Assembly (NCBI GenBank): GCA_022841825.1
Contig: JALHQT010000001.1
Span: forward strand, 496,001-560,000
Length of the DNA: 64,000 nucleotides
Source: Anaerolineae bacterium
GTDB taxonomy: Bacteria; Chloroflexota; Anaerolineae; Aggregatilineales; Phototrophicaceae
Direction: 5' to 3'
Shown here: one piece after another, positions 37,091 to 45,373 of the stretch
Layout of the letters: every line of letters starts with the position of its first letter
Numbering within the stretch: position 1 is the stretch's first letter
The notes under the pieces: model-generated
Databases searched by the model: none
Seen by the model: the letters and a program-made list of their open reading frames with translations, nothing else
Told to the model about the DNA's origin: nothing
Translations under genes and position numbers: made by a program

Positions 37091-37810
37091 ATGTCGCTAG
37101 AAAGTGCGCGCGCATTAGCCTACGGCATGGTGATAGGCGGATCTCTGGGTGCTTGGGTTGCGCGCCGAACCGAGCTTCAGGGGGTAGCGTCGCGCGCTCA
37201 AGGCGTCGTACCCACGTTTGAGGAGTTTGATATTCTGCTGCCTACTGAACCGCAACGCGCTTCTTGGAACAACAATTCGCTTGTGACTGGCTGGTTGTTT
37301 CACGGTGATCTGCCCAAGCTGCATAAAGCAGCAGCGAGCGCTCAGTTGTTTGTCGATGGCACTTCACGCGATATAGCCGCCAGTATCGCAGCGGCATATC
37401 TTGTTGCGCTGGCACTCAATGGCGTGCGCGATCATGAATATGCGCGGCACGTGGTGGAGTACACAGATGGTCTAAGTGCGAGTTTGGATGCAGCGTTCTA
37501 TCGCCTGGGACATTCACTCGCATGGAGTGACGAAGCTGGCGCGATGGCGCATGTCTGGCGTGACGGCGGCGACGAGTGCCTGGTCGTCTTGGCGTGTTAC
37601 TGTTTGATGCGATTTCCGACCGACTTCGTAGCTGCGGTGCACAGGGCAGTGAGTTTCGGTGGGCAGGGCGCCCGCCTGGGGTATCTTGTTGGCGGGATGA
37701 TGGGAGCTAAACTTGGCTTGGCTGGACTCCCAAAGGCCTGGCGTGAACGATGTGACAACAGCGCCCATTTTGACGCGATAGTCCGGTCGATGGCTGGTAT
37801 GAAAGGCTGA
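37091..37810 (+). CDS. ADP-ribosylglycohydrolase-like pseudoenzyme
   Basis: 239 residues whose layout follows ADP-ribosylglycohydrolases (ARH/DraG), which remove ADP-ribose from proteins using two Mg ions. The helix pattern ACYCLMRFPTDFVAAVHRAV then GYLVGGMMGAKLGLAGLPKAWRER matches the family C terminus closely. Each metal-binding Asp motif is replaced: GDALG is GGSLG, the TDDT motif reads NNNS (within ASWNNNSLV), and GGDSD reads GGQGA. Catalysis is therefore unlikely; an ADP-ribose reader or scaffold is a possibility. It is followed after five bases by the yjbR-like gene. Homology is from pattern recognition and should be checked by profile search. Confidence 0.62.
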   Translation: MSLESARALAYGMVIGGSLGAWVARRTELQGVASRAQGVVPTFEEFDILLPTEPQRASWNNNSLVTGWLFHGDLPKLHKAAASAQLFVDGTSRDIAASIAAAYLVALALNGVRDHEYARHVVEYTDGLSASLDAAFYRLGHSLAWSDEAGAMAHVWRDGGDECLVVLACYCLMRFPTDFVAAVHRAVSFGGQGARLGYLVGGMMGAKLGLAGLPKAWRERCDNSAHFDAIVRSMAGMKG

Positions 37811-37815
37811 CGGTT

Positions 37816-38175
37816 ATGAGTCTTACATTGGATGCGTTGAAGGCACATTGCCTGAGCAAACAAGGGGCATTTGAAGACTTTCCGTTTGGGGAGGACCCCG
37901 TCTACAAGGTAGAAGGCAAGATGTTTGCTTTACTCGTAGAGGCGACACCAGCACGCATTGTGTTGAAGTGTGACCCGCGACTGGTGCCGGTACTGCGCGA
38001 GACATATCCCGCAGTAACCGCACCCGCATACTTTGACAAGAATCATTGGAATCAAGTCGTGGTCGATGGGAGCATTTCAGACCCCGAGGTGCTGGAAATG
38101 ATTGACCAGTCCTATGCGTTGGTCGTGAAGGGTCTAACGAAAGCGGCCCGCGCACGTTTGACAGCCGCCGGGTAG
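37816..38175 (+). CDS. MmcQ/YjbR family protein
   Basis: 119 residues, the family's usual length. Signatures include KQGAFEDFPFGEDPVYKVEGKMFALL, VLKCDPRLVPVLRETYPAVTAPAYFDKNHWNQV and the final YALVVKGLTKAARARL helix. YjbR proteins adopt a CyaY-like fold and are suspected of DNA binding; no biochemical activity is established. It is coupled to the ARH-like gene by a five-base gap. The -35 hexamer of the downstream his operon promoter lies inside its last codons. Confidence 0.88.
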   Translation: MSLTLDALKAHCLSKQGAFEDFPFGEDPVYKVEGKMFALLVEATPARIVLKCDPRLVPVLRETYPAVTAPAYFDKNHWNQVVVDGSISDPEVLEMIDQSYALVVKGLTKAARARLTAAG

Positions 38176-38186
38176 CTGTCTATACT
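38158..38186 (+). promoter_or_regulatory. Consensus promoter of the his operon
   Basis: TTGACA (38158-38163), a 17-base spacer, TATACT (38181-38186). The -35 lies within the last codons of the yjbR-like gene. Transcription would start near 38193, only about seven bases before the leader-peptide Shine-Dalgarno. Confidence 0.85.
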
Positions 38187-38211
38187 CTACGCATTCTGCG
38201 GAGGTATCCTG

Positions 38212-38259
38212 GTGTTTCATCAGTCACATCATCACGGTTGTTTTCCCAATCAGGTGTAG
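38212..38259 (+). CDS. hisL: Histidine-operon leader peptide (15 residues)
   Basis: GTG start at 38212, seven bases after a GGAGG Shine-Dalgarno (38200-38204), stop TAG at 38257-38259. The translation is MFHQSHHHGCFPNQV: four His in positions 3, 6, 7 and 8, encoded by CAT CAT CAT CAC. A ribosome short of charged tRNA-His would stall at 38218-38235. The stop codon lies within the strand that can form the antiterminator. This is the arrangement of classic his attenuators; the role is inferred from structure, and the peptide has no homologue I can cite. Confidence 0.8.
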   Translation: MFHQSHHHGCFPNQV

Positions 38260-38320
38260 GTAACTGACTGAACACATGCCTCTTGTTGTCTTAAGTCCCC
38301 CCACCTGGCGGGGATTTTTT
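38251..38320 (+). promoter_or_regulatory. His operon attenuator: antiterminator / terminator switch
   Basis: Terminator: TCCCC (38296-38300) pairs with GGGGA (38310-38314), extended by flanking AAG/TTT pairs, followed by six T (38315-38320). Antiterminator: CAGGTG (38251-38256) pairs perfectly with CACCTG (38302-38307), and GG 38259-38260 with CC 38298-38299, occupying the terminator's 5' arm. A ribosome finishing the leader peptide (stop 38257-38259) would mask the antiterminator strand and allow termination; stalling at the His codons would leave it free. hisH begins 16 bases after the T-run. Confidence 0.75.
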
Positions 38321-38335
38321 GTTTATGGAGCAGCC

Positions 38336-38950
38336 ATGTTAGCAGTGATCGATTACGGCGCGGGGAACCTGAGAAGTGTCATGCATGCGCTCAATCATCT
38401 GGGCGTAGAAAGCATTCGTGTTGTTCGGACACCGCGCGATCTGGCAGGAGCGACAAAGATCATCCTTCCGGGGGTTGGGGCATTTGGCGCGGGGATGCAG
38501 AGGCTGCATGAGCAGAATCTTGTGCAGCCGATTCGGGATGCGGTGTTCGCCGGGGTACCCTATCTGGGGATCTGCCTTGGGATGCAGTTCCTGTTTGAGG
38601 TCAGCGACGAGATGGGGGAGCACCGCGGGTTAGGGCTGCTGCCCGGTCGTGTCACACGGTTTCCGGAATTGCCAGGCTATAAGGTGCCTCACATGGGCTG
38701 GAACCGGATTCGCCCGTCCCGCGAGTCGCCGCTGCTAAGGGGTATCCCGCACGAAGGATATGCCTATTTTGTCCATAGTTACTACTGTGTCCCGTTGCAC
38801 GAAGCAGATGTGCTCGCCGTCGTGGACTATGGTGTGCGTTTCACCGCGGCTGTTGAGCATGAACGAATCTGGGGTGTGCAGTTTCATCCGGAAAAGAGTC
38901 AGGAAACTGGATTGCGATTGCTCGCCAACTTCCTGGAGATGGAATCATGA
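38336..38950 (+). CDS. hisH: Imidazole glycerol phosphate synthase, glutaminase subunit HisH
   Basis: 204 residues from the ATG at 38336, preceded by GGAG five bases upstream; the in-frame ATG at 38276 lies within the attenuator and is rejected. Starts with LAVIDYGAGNLRSVMHAL and has the class I amidotransferase nucleophile in PYLGICLGMQFLF (Cys) and the partner His-Glu in VQFHPEKSQ. It releases ammonia from glutamine for HisF, in the fifth step of histidine synthesis. First gene of the operon hisH-A-F-I-E, controlled by the upstream leader attenuator. It overlaps hisA by ATGA. Confidence 0.97.
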   Translation: MLAVIDYGAGNLRSVMHALNHLGVESIRVVRTPRDLAGATKIILPGVGAFGAGMQRLHEQNLVQPIRDAVFAGVPYLGICLGMQFLFEVSDEMGEHRGLGLLPGRVTRFPELPGYKVPHMGWNRIRPSRESPLLRGIPHEGYAYFVHSYYCVPLHEADVLAVVDYGVRFTAAVEHERIWGVQFHPEKSQETGLRLLANFLEMES

Positions 38951-39675
38951 TTGTTTATCCAGCGATTGACATGCGAAACGGTCAGGTTGTGCGATTGCGT
39001 GAAGGTGACCCGAACCGCCAGACTGTATTTGGGGATGATCCTGTGGCGGTCGCCGAGCGCTGGCTGAAGGCGGGCGCACAGTGGGTTCACATGGTCAATC
39101 TCGATGGGGCTTTTGCAGGCGCGCATGATAACGGGACGATACTGCCGCGTGTGGCTGCGGCAGGACTGAAGATCCAGTTTGGTGGTGGGCTGCGGTCGGA
39201 AGCTGATATCGCGCTTGCTTTCTCTCGTGGGGTGACGCGCGTTGTGATCGGTACTGCTGCGGTGACCAATCCAGAGCTTGTTCGTTGGGCGATTGCTCAA
39301 TATGGTGTGGACGCAGTTTGTACTGCCCTGGATGCCCGTGACGGATACGTGACGACGCATGGGTGGCAGGAAAAGACCACGATCCATGTGCACGATCTGG
39401 GCATCCAGGTGGCGGATATGGGCGTTCGGCACTGCCTGTTTACCGATGTGGGGCTGGATGGCAGTCTGACGGGCGTCAACTTCGCAGGAACAGTCGCGTT
39501 GGCGCGGGCTAGCGGGCTGGCGGTGATTGCCTCCGGCGGCGTCCAATCCCTGGATGACATCAGTGCGCTTAAGGACAGCGGGGTGGTTGCGGGGGCTGTG
39601 ATCGGCATGGCACTTTATGAAGAACGCATCGATCTTGCGGCGGCACTGGGTGTAGCAGGAGGCGCAGCATGTTAG
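38947..39675 (+). CDS. hisA: Phosphoribosylformimino-5-aminoimidazole carboxamide ribotide isomerase
   Basis: 242 residues, TIM barrel. It isomerises ProFAR to PRFAR (fourth step of histidine synthesis). The catalytic Asp lies in [14 protein letters not shown]; the second acidic residue in [11 protein letters not shown]; the half-barrel phosphate-binding [10 protein letters not shown] and [10 protein letters not shown] motifs are present. Overlaps hisH by four bases (ATGA) and hisF by seven, so the whole run is translationally coupled. Standard length and composition; nothing unusual in the protein itself. Confidence 0.97.
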
Positions 39676-40442
39676 CGAAACGAATCATCCCGTGCCTGGA
39701 TGTGATGGACGGACGTGTTGTCAAAGGGGTCAACTTTGTCGACTTACGCGACGCGGGAGATCCGGTAGAGCAGGCGATTGTCTATGACCGCGAGGGCGCG
39801 GACGAGCTGGTATTCCTCGACATCACTGCTTCTCACGAGGCACGAAACACAACCCTGGATATGGTGCGGCGTGTGGCGGATTCGGTGTTTCTGCCATTTT
39901 GTGTCGGCGGTGGCATCCGCACAATTGACGATATTCGCGCGACGCTGCTGGCGGGCGCGGACAAGGTTTCGATCAACAGCTCGGCTGTCAAGACGCCTGA
40001 ACTGATTAACCAGGGGGCATGGGCATTCGGCAGCCAGTGCATTGTGGTGGCGATTGACCCTAAATGGACAGGCAATCGTTGGGAGGTCTACATCAACGGC
40101 GGACGTGCCCCCACCGGGCTGGATGCCATTGAGTGGGCGCGCGAGGTCGAGCGCCGAGGTGCAGGTGAGATTCTGCTGACGAGCATGGATCGCGATGGGA
40201 CAAGAGTGGGGTATAACATCGAATTGACTCGCGCGGTCAGCGAGAGTGTTTCGATTCCTGTCATCGCAAGTGGCGGGGCGGGGGCGCAGGAGCACTTTTT
40301 TGAGGCGCTCGCGGCAGGGAAGGCGGATGCGGCGCTGGCTGCATCGCTCTTTCACTACAATGAACTGCGGATTGGTGATCTGAAGCGATACCTGGATGGG
40401 CGCGGTCTTCCGATACGAATGAGCGGTTGGGAGCATCCATGA
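39669..40442 (+). CDS. hisF: Imidazole glycerol phosphate synthase, cyclase subunit HisF
   Basis: 257 residues. Partner of HisH, converting PRFAR and ammonia to imidazole glycerol phosphate and AICAR. Starts [23 protein letters not shown] with the first catalytic Asp, has [22 protein letters not shown], the second catalytic Asp in VVAIDPKW and the phosphate-binding [11 protein letters not shown]. Overlaps hisA by seven bases and hisI by four (ATGA at 40439-40442). Confidence 0.98.
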
Positions 40443-40768
40443 ACTGGGATCTCATTCGGTGGGATCGCGATGGTCTGGTCGCGACTGTGGTACAGGATAG
40501 TCAGACGCTTCAAGTATTGACGGTTGCGTACATGACCCGAACGTCACTGGAGCGATCGCTGGAAATCGGCGAAACGGTGTTCTGGAGTCGGAGTCGCCAG
40601 GAATTGTGGCATAAAGGCGAGACCAGCGGGAATACGCAGCGCATTCGCGAGATTCGCGTCGATTGCGACGGCGATGCACTTCTCATTCTGGTGGAACCGC
40701 GCGGACCCGCGTGCCATACCGGTGCTGTCACCTGCTTTTATCGTACGCTGGAGGAAACTCATGAGTGA
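40439..40768 (+). CDS. hisI: Phosphoribosyl-AMP cyclohydrolase
   Basis: 109 residues from the ATG overlapping the hisF stop. It opens the purine ring of phosphoribosyl-AMP (third step). Metal and substrate motifs are intact: [40 protein letters not shown], then [13 protein letters not shown] and [13 protein letters not shown] with the zinc Cys residues. It is a stand-alone HisI, not fused to HisE as in enterobacteria; hisE follows with an 8-base overlap. Confidence 0.97.
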
Positions 40769-41057
40769 TATGCTGCATTTCCTGGAGAACCTGATACGAG
40801 ATCGCCAAGCCAGCCCGCAACCGGGCAGCTATACGAACCGCCTGTTTGACGCAGGGACGAACAAGATTGCCCAGAAGGTCGGCGAAGAAGCAGTAGAGGT
40901 TGTCGTGGCGGCATTAGGGCAAGGGCGTGAAGCGCAGATTGGCGAATTGTCTGACCTGTTCTACCACACCCTGGTGTTGATGGCGCAGCTTGGGCTGCGA
41001 TTGGAAGATGTTTACGCGGAACTTGAGCGTCGCCACGCGCTGCGGACCGAGAATTGA
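40761..41057 (+). CDS. hisE: Phosphoribosyl-ATP pyrophosphatase
   Basis: 98 residues from ATG 40761, inside the last codons of hisI (8-base overlap). It removes pyrophosphate from phosphoribosyl-ATP (second step). The MazG-like all-helical signature is [31 protein letters not shown] and [16 protein letters not shown]. The first-step gene hisG and the later hisB, hisC and hisD are not in this window and must lie elsewhere. Confidence 0.97.
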
Positions 41058-45297: not shown

Positions 45298-45299
45298 TG

Positions 45300-45373
45300 T
45301 GCCCCCGGAGAGACTCGAACTCCCGACATCAGGTTTAGAAGACCTGCGTTCTGTCCTGCTGAACTACGGGGGC
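45300..45373 (-). tRNA. tRNA-Arg (anticodon UCU)
   Basis: 74-nucleotide cloverleaf on the minus strand. The acceptor stem is GCCCCCG with CGGGGGC and discriminator A; CCA is not encoded. The anticodon stem is CAGGT/ACCTG with loop CTTCTAA giving anticodon TCT, which reads AGA/AGG arginine codons. The T-arm is GGGAG-TTCGAGT-CTCTC and the D-arm GTTC/GAAC. A near-consensus promoter precedes it. Confidence 0.95.

Follow-up and report, generated by a model that had tools for sequence, protein, structure and literature searches.

The window, that is, the whole 64,000-nucleotide stretch of contig JALHQT010000001.1 that we analyzed, contains a series of regulatory elements immediately upstream of a histidine biosynthesis operon, all on the plus strand. 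A sigma-70-type promoter, TTGACA-N17-TATACT, occupies positions 38158-38186 and agrees with the consensus at 11 of 12 bases; read base by base, it consists of TTGACA at 38158-38163, a 17-base spacer, and TATACT at 38181-38186. It is the sole promoter-like site listed in 37600-38800, where shuffled sequences yield 0.6 such sites on average, and its position would place the transcription start at approximately 38193. A Shine-Dalgarno sequence, GGAGGT (38200-38205), precedes a predicted leader peptide ORF, VFHQSHHHGCFPNQV (38212-38259), which opens with GTG at 38212-38214, comprises 15 codons, and ends with TAG at 38257-38259. Within it lie four candidate regulatory His codons (38218-38235), namely CAT at 38218, 38227, and 38230, and CAC at 38233. 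The final two sense codons of the leader, CAGGTG (38251-38256), are perfectly complementary to CACCTG (38302-38307), which forms the tip of a predicted intrinsic terminator hairpin. This terminator (38295-38320) is composed of a stem-loop at 38295-38315 (GTCCCCCCACCTGGCGGGGAT, -11.9 kcal/mol) and a run of six Ts at 38315-38320. A simple terminator scan of the window region found 0 terminators and left the 38295-38315 stem unlisted. The likely cause is a bulged base, and the stem is present in the folds.

The promoter, Shine-Dalgarno, GTG-started 15-codon leader with four His codons, and terminator with six Ts are thus all where a first-pass annotation of this DNA had placed them, and the perfect CAGGTG/CACCTG pairing that it described can be read directly from the sequence. 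Two of its statements need adjusting. The leader stop codon, which it put inside the antiterminator strand, adjoins that strand, TAG coming directly after CAGGTG. The pairing, which it proposed to sequester the 5' arm of the terminator, covers the loop and adjoining stem bases, but CACCTG does not span the whole 5' arm; a few extra antiterminator pairs extend into the C run in the nascent fold with a stalled ribosome.

Upstream of the leader, a gene of the YjbR family (37816-38175; Pfam, 8.3e-25) ends within the promoter spacer. Downstream, hisH is the first structural gene (38336-38950; Pfam GATase, 5.1e-23), with an ATG start at 38336 behind an SD-like GGAG at 38327-38330, and the protein that it encodes shares 63-78% identity with seven hisH proteins from relatives. 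It is followed on the same strand by hisA (38947-39675; His_biosynth, 7e-68), hisF (39669-40442; His_biosynth, 5.4e-85), hisI (40427-40768; PRA-CH, 4.1e-34), and hisE (40761-41057; PRA-PH, 2.7e-23), and then by a thioesterase gene according to Pfam. Which of the two His_biosynth genes is hisA and which is hisF we presume from their order; otherwise, the hisH-A-F-I-E arrangement given by the first-pass annotation is matched by Pfam. The genes behind the leader make histidine, the very amino acid of the leader's codon run. In the same genome, hisG lies ~59 kb from hisH, behind hisZ. An ATG at 38276, upstream of the terminator, shares the reading frame of hisH (38276-38335), so automatic annotation may start hisH before the terminator and read through it. 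Elsewhere in the window, a tRNA-Arg (tct) on the minus strand (45299-45373) is the sole tRNA found.

To see how widely this arrangement is conserved, we sought hisH in the genome of the window and 60 relatives, with some match in 57 of the 61, and added the best 80 of 251 named loci from a species collection, whose titles are mostly Anaerolineae or Chloroflexi, and in some cases Aggregatilineales, Phototrophicales, or Anaerolineaceae. Three loci without a hisH motif (L032, L033, and L047) were left out, and removal of duplicates gave 98 distinct hisH upstream regions, 96 of them full-length. Our rule identifies a leader in 70 of the 98 regions, a terminator-like hairpin in 85, a generous count since the search accepts weak hairpins, and both in 69. 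The leader rules (number of His, Arg, or Cys per scanned segment, ORF length, distance) were fixed after the first examples, and the controls were run under identical rules. His-rich leaders occur in 70 of the 96 full-length regions, compared with 6.2 on average (maximum 9) when dinucleotides are shuffled and with 6 when the reverse strand is scanned; under a stricter rule of at least four His per 10 codons, the figures are 42 of 96, 0.3 (maximum 1), and 2, respectively. One added record, L068 (JAHHHY010000001.1), bears the title MAG: Pleurocapsa minor, which names a cyanobacterium, and carries an Anaerolineae-type hisH with a His leader; it is probably a mislabelled metagenome bin, its match agreeing with G012, which is of the same genus as the window.

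Conservation of the His codons in relatives had been named earlier as one of the points on which the attenuator would stand or fall. In the family of the window, 33 genomes have a clear hisH, and the leader precedes it by rule in 28 of these, 27 of which also have a terminator. Among the remaining five, four show a two-His form by eye and one (G031) nothing clear. No leader was found in the 14 hisH regions examined from other families of the order, in several of which another open frame runs up to hisH, with a motif that we take to be that of hisB. For measurements we used 65 cases, i.e., the 69 regions with leader and terminator minus L027, L034, L108, and L131, in which the start, terminator, or leader was mis-called. 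The leaders have a median length of 20 codons, and the spacing is tight, with a median of 15 codons from the first His of the cluster to the stop (interquartile range, 13-15) and of 30 nt from the stop to the terminator (28-32). In 63 of the 65 cases the leader is preceded by a promoter-like site that matches at least 10 of 12 consensus bases, the mean best score being 10.9 versus 6.3 in shuffles. The leaders' His codons are CAT 193 times and CAC 68 times, and the peptides are hardly alignable beyond the His cluster.

The pairing between leader end and terminator takes two forms among the 65 cases. In a sub-type of 39, which includes the window, the leader typically ends with GGUG(U/C)UGG and the partner is GCACC, while in a sub-type of 26 the leader ends with GAGCG...GGC and the partner is GCC..CGCUC. 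Alignment A3 consists of 35 sequences, the window and 34 relatives (clade 1), without L072, L073, L081, L088, L119, and L131 and with L057 and L084 added. Antiterminator pairs are present in 87.0% of its cells versus 36-59% in slid controls, a somewhat favorable value because the six excluded clade-1 rows include some that pair poorly, and the terminator stem is paired in 94.8% of cells. Double-change cells number 12 in A3 versus 4.9 in shuffles, and one of 500 shuffles reaches 12. In alignment A2 (26 sequences of the other sub-type), antiterminator pairs occupy 82.9% of cells versus 36-52% when slid, a paired-cell count above all 500 shuffles; its covariation score is reached by 49 of the 500, its double-change cells by 32, and its number of pair types by 368. 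Parsimony on the hisH tree gives, for A3, three double changes and 22 single changes that keep the pairing along with 28 that break it, and, for A2, no double and four single changes that keep it along with eight that break it. Register shifts, which are visible by eye, fall outside these fixed-column counts.

Strands were also exchanged between cases, which needs no alignment. On average, the pairing of a leader strand with its own terminator is stronger than with the terminators of other genomes (65 cases; Wilcoxon p 7e-8, uncorrected for kinship). Within the sub-types, the own pair is better than the mean exchange in 31 of 39 cases (p 1.8e-4) and in 17 of 26 (p 0.01); against the mean of exchanges across sub-types, it is better in 30 of 39 and 24 of 26. 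With sub-type 1 terminators, strands from the other sub-type do just as well as exchanged strands from sub-type 1 itself (both with a mean of -10.4 kcal/mol), the own strand reaching -12.0. Tested singly against shuffles of the own leader end, the pairing is significant at 0.05 in 25 of 68 cases, all but one of the 69 regions that have both elements, and in 20 of the 65. Of the alternative pairings expected in relatives, the complementarity is thus well above slid controls but column covariation is modest; as far as these alignments indicate, the pairing strand tends to change together with its partner between sub-clades. On the conservation of His codons and pairings in relatives, the attenuator reading survived the check that had been set for it.

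A covariance model built from A3, for which the window and many relatives were training rows, matches the hisH leader of the window's genome once (E 2.7e-15) and gives 18 strong matches (E 1.4e-9 or better) in 37 genomes, all directly before hisH.

We then asked whether the RNA could switch between the two structures. On its own, the segment 38193-38335 folds with a z-score of -2.15, with 4 of 200 shuffles folding equally well or better. When the leader is not translated, a long hairpin is predicted in which GGAGGUAU (38200-38207) pairs with AUGCCUCU (38276-38283), hiding the leader Shine-Dalgarno, which lies in its 5' strand. Nascent transcripts were modeled by cutting the RNA before most of the 3' arm of the terminator and simulating the ribosome by a mask, as the first-pass annotation had suggested, and the expected switch is seen in the window. 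Its antiterminator probability is 0.00 when no ribosome is present, 0.99 when one is stalled at the His codons, and 0.00 when one sits at the stop. Over the 65 cases, the means are 0.40, 0.69, and 0.01, values of at least 0.5 are reached in 26, 47, and 0 cases, respectively, and the probability is higher at His than at the stop in 64. The result for a ribosome at the stop partly follows from the mask covering the strand, the position of the strand there being the real observation. The hairpin of the untranslated state is clear in the window but not general, as judged from the mean of 0.40 without a ribosome. In full-length stalled folds, the mean probability is 0.73 for the terminator versus 0.24 for the antiterminator, and 0.27 versus 0.72 in the window. 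Since the terminator dominates on average at full length even when the ribosome is stalled, the model works only if the choice is made while the RNA is still being transcribed. We also considered strand 1 paired with a post-stop strand as a general protector hairpin; this was weakly supported, reaching p<0.05 in 12 of 65 cases, and was dropped.

Judging from sequence and modeling, it is very likely that this region is a ribosome-mediated transcription attenuator coupling histidine supply to hisHAFIE. In the mechanism that we infer from the parts, their conservation, and their folding in silico, RNA polymerase would start near 38193 and a ribosome would begin the 15-codon leader. When His-tRNA is scarce, the ribosome would stall at CAT-CAT-CAC (38227-38235), leaving CAGGUG (38251-38256) uncovered and free to pair with CACCUG (38302-38307) before the 3' arm of the terminator is complete, and polymerase could continue into hisH. 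When His-tRNA is ample, the ribosome would reach the stop codon just past CAGGUG and cover that strand, so that the terminator would form and transcription end in the U run. If the leader is untranslated, the long hairpin over it would occupy CAGGUG and hide the Shine-Dalgarno, and the terminator would again form. The finding of the first-pass annotation was right in nearly every detail.

Other explanations of the same parts have to be weighed. The YjbR-family gene ends within the promoter spacer, at 38175, so that a terminator close by would not be surprising in itself; it might serve that gene, the His-rich ORF being a chance frame and hisH having another promoter. However, a strong promoter precedes the leader and the scan listed none between the terminator and hisH; leader, terminator, and spacing are conserved in relatives; and His leaders with terminators also precede hisG in other Anaerolineae, as described below. 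A chance ORF beside an ordinary terminator was rejected on the strength of this conservation, the spacing, and the controls, and we regard this explanation as highly improbable. That the ORF encodes a functional small protein, e.g., a metal-binding peptide separated from hisH by the terminator, would agree with a peptide that is conserved in kind, and His clusters can bind metals. Yet the peptides show little alignable sequence outside that cluster, the conserved 3' end is accounted for by its base pairing with the terminator, and every one of the 18 strong covariance-model matches lies directly before hisH, all of which leaves a small protein exceedingly improbable.

Alternatively, the terminator might also be used by some other regulator (T-box, riboswitch, or a protein like HisR), given that the his genes of other Gram-positives are under T-box and HisR control (PMC9413887). 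T-box or repressor control had been mentioned at the outset as what might be expected in this phylum. In our searches no T-box, Rfam riboswitch, or TrpR/HisR-family gene passed its cut-off. Rfam at gathering score returned nothing in the window except a tRNA, and nothing in 20 related loci, and with the threshold relaxed to E 10 on 37900-38500, neither T-box nor His_leader was among the weak matches, which include Phe_leader at 16.2 bits versus a cut-off of 55. We consequently rejected a T-box, an Rfam riboswitch, and the enteric His leader, none having a match over cut-off, as well as a TrpR/HisR repressor, the latter from a gene search that gave no match over cut-off in 21 genomes and one sub-threshold match of 21.8 bits in the window's own genome (G000). 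There is, then, very little chance that such a regulator acts here. Finally, the leader peptide might act on the translation of hisH and not on its transcription, as attenuators of this kind exist (PMC9413887). A strong stem followed by a U run before hisH, whose ribosome site lies outside the stem, speaks against this translational variant, which we consider quite improbable.

Transcription attenuation by a His leader may also be used at other his loci. A search for hisG was positive in 86 of 120 genomes from the class and in 93 of 121 from a phylum sample, and 139 hisG loci were scanned, revealing a His-rich leader with a terminator in 21 in sense orientation versus one in antisense. These amount to 20 of the 91 loci of the class and one of the 48 of other classes (L196, weak), the count being a lower bound because many loci hold only ~1.5 kb of upstream sequence. 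By position, the next gene is hisG in 13 loci (L213, L219, L220, L222, L223, L224, L232, L249, L272, L138, L141, L148, and L150), Pfam having been run on L272 alone. A longer gene comes first in seven. In six of these (L164, L256-L259, and L262) the best match of this gene is to the hisZ model TIGR00443, over cut-off in three, with 300-residue cuts compared in all six; in the seventh, L167, the frame tried matched nothing. The pairing of leader end with terminator is significant versus shuffles in 9 of 20 loci (L196 left out), that is, in 9 of the 13 with hisG first and in none of the other seven. The antiterminator helices before hisG include GAUCGAAGG:CCUUCGAUC (L222), GGUCGGG:CCCGACC (L272), and AUUGACC:GGUCAAU (L223). 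By these sequence comparisons, the hisG leaders behave like the hisH leader, with other sequences, while before hisZ only leader and terminator are seen. In the window's own genome, a candidate second His attenuator before hisZ-hisG is a weak frame (MRNVSAVTHSHLCYH...) that overlaps hisZ, and we treated it as chance. Nine other hisZ-hisG regions from the same genus, in most or some of which the start of hisZ was located, have a His-rich frame in one (L441), unlike MRNVSAVTHSHLCYH....

The A3 covariance model also led to leaders for other amino acids. Searched against the class, it gave some match in 9 of 120 genomes, and seven weak matches were inspected. L335 (G043) and L336 (G049) have MTTHYFTIHCCCTSHPRCWCSPRA or a near copy before an assimilatory sulfite reductase gene, named for L335 by NCBIfam (686.5 bits, cut-off 457), and L343 (G022) has MIAKWFTFTRRERRRRTCITDSVV before argG (622.6 bits, cut-off 334). 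L352 (G029:C251:12983-13111), at 28 bits, has the leader MTYRFIIITMTDTNRSL, which contains Ile codons, and a terminator ahead of a gene resembling an aminotransferase, for which none of the 25 families shown reaches its cut-off. L341 proved to be a leader of hisH, and L339 and L342 look like chance.

Surveys of the corresponding genes extended these matches. An Arg-rich leader with a terminator is present at 21 of 50 argG loci in sense versus 2 of 50 in antisense orientation, with examples at L370, L372, L378, L379, L416, L419, L426, L428, and L430. A few of the 21 look accidental (L362, L369, and L382), and many of the leaders have a common core like RRIRRRRT. Terminator pairing, tested in 15 chosen from the 21, is significant in 11, with helices that differ from one another, as in GUUCGGGG:CCCCGAAC, AGUCCGG:CCGGACU, and GAGGUUCG:CGAACCUC. 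Cys-rich leaders with terminators are found at 10 of 18 loci of the sulfite/nitrite reductase family (NIR_SIR) versus 0 of 18 in antisense, and the pairing is significant in 6 of the 13 tested among 15 Cys leaders. Five of these loci (L385, L390, L392, L393, and L398) have a single leader. The others (L389, L394, L396, L397, and L399, the last three from one genus) have tandem leaders, each with its own terminator. In the window's own genome, argG has no Arg leader and NIR_SIR has no match. Trp leaders before trpE were found at one of 18 loci in sense (L280, where the leader lies past the point at which the trpE match begins) and none in antisense, and Leu/Ile/Val leaders before leuA at none of 25 loci, each reaching only a few hundred bases upstream. 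Taken as a whole, the Anaerolineae probably possess a repertoire of attenuators that arose independently of the enteric and Firmicutes ones, with His leaders at the first his gene (hisH, hisG, and perhaps hisZ), Arg leaders before argG that would sense arginine via an intrinsic terminator, and leaders with Cys codons ahead of sulfite reductase. If so, two Cys attenuators in series would multiply the response.

A close counterpart in design is the enteric his operon leader hisL (Rfam RF00514, His_leader). Like hisL, the leader in the window is a short ORF with consecutive His codons, is predicted to choose between an antiterminator and a terminator, and would have transcription of a his operon as its output. 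Unlike hisL, it has no Rfam His_leader match in the window, stands before a hisH-first operon, contains four His codons, three of them consecutive, and is compact, the end of the leader ORF being itself the antiterminator strand. From sequence and modeling, the mechanism is most likely of the classical attenuator type, with no sequence match to the enteric one.

Similar systems are known from other phyla. His attenuators occur in three groups of Firmicutes, i.e., the B. cereus group, Peptostreptococcaceae and Lutispora, and Erysipelotrichales, as described in PMC9413887. They too have short leaders with three to five His codons and terminator/antiterminator structures before his operons, and were likewise recognized by comparative genomics, but they belong to another phylum, and the likeness noted here is one of design; in that paper, the word Chloroflexi occurs in the reference list alone. 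In bacilli, a His leader precedes hisS/hisZ paralogs (PMC2965389), again with a stretch of His codons in a short ORF and a premature terminator, and also before hisZ, as at some of the loci found here. The phylum is again a different one, and the main text of that paper has no word that starts with 'chloroflex'. The argG leaders may be compared with orf34 of Salmonella speF, an upstream ORF whose Arg codons sense arginine and which, according to PMC6386406, acts via Rho, mRNA decay, and translation, not via an intrinsic terminator. As for cysteine, uORFC-8-2 before cysS in Rhodobacterales is a cysteine attenuator (PMC8632094), and polycysteine leaders of mycobacteria appear as a title among the references of PMC13236596. 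These share with ours Cys codons before sulfur- or cysteine-related genes; unlike the known Cys attenuators, those found here precede sulfite/nitrite reductase-family genes, and five loci have two leaders in a row.

Our searches of open-licence papers found no described peptide-leader attenuator in Chloroflexota, and the first-pass annotation was aware of none for his. What appears new here is the phylum, and the wider His/Arg/Cys set is more interesting than the hisH leader alone. The leader gives Chloroflexota a clear, testable candidate for a histidine sensor, and its counterparts suggest one mechanism that was built again from unrelated sequences and stationed at the heads of different operons. 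Since the covariance model of the hisH leader led to Arg and Cys leaders, attenuation by amino acid supply may be common throughout this poorly cultured lineage. If it is, part of the nutritional regulation of uncultured bacteria would be readable from genomes alone, and one could ask how often attenuators arise from scratch.
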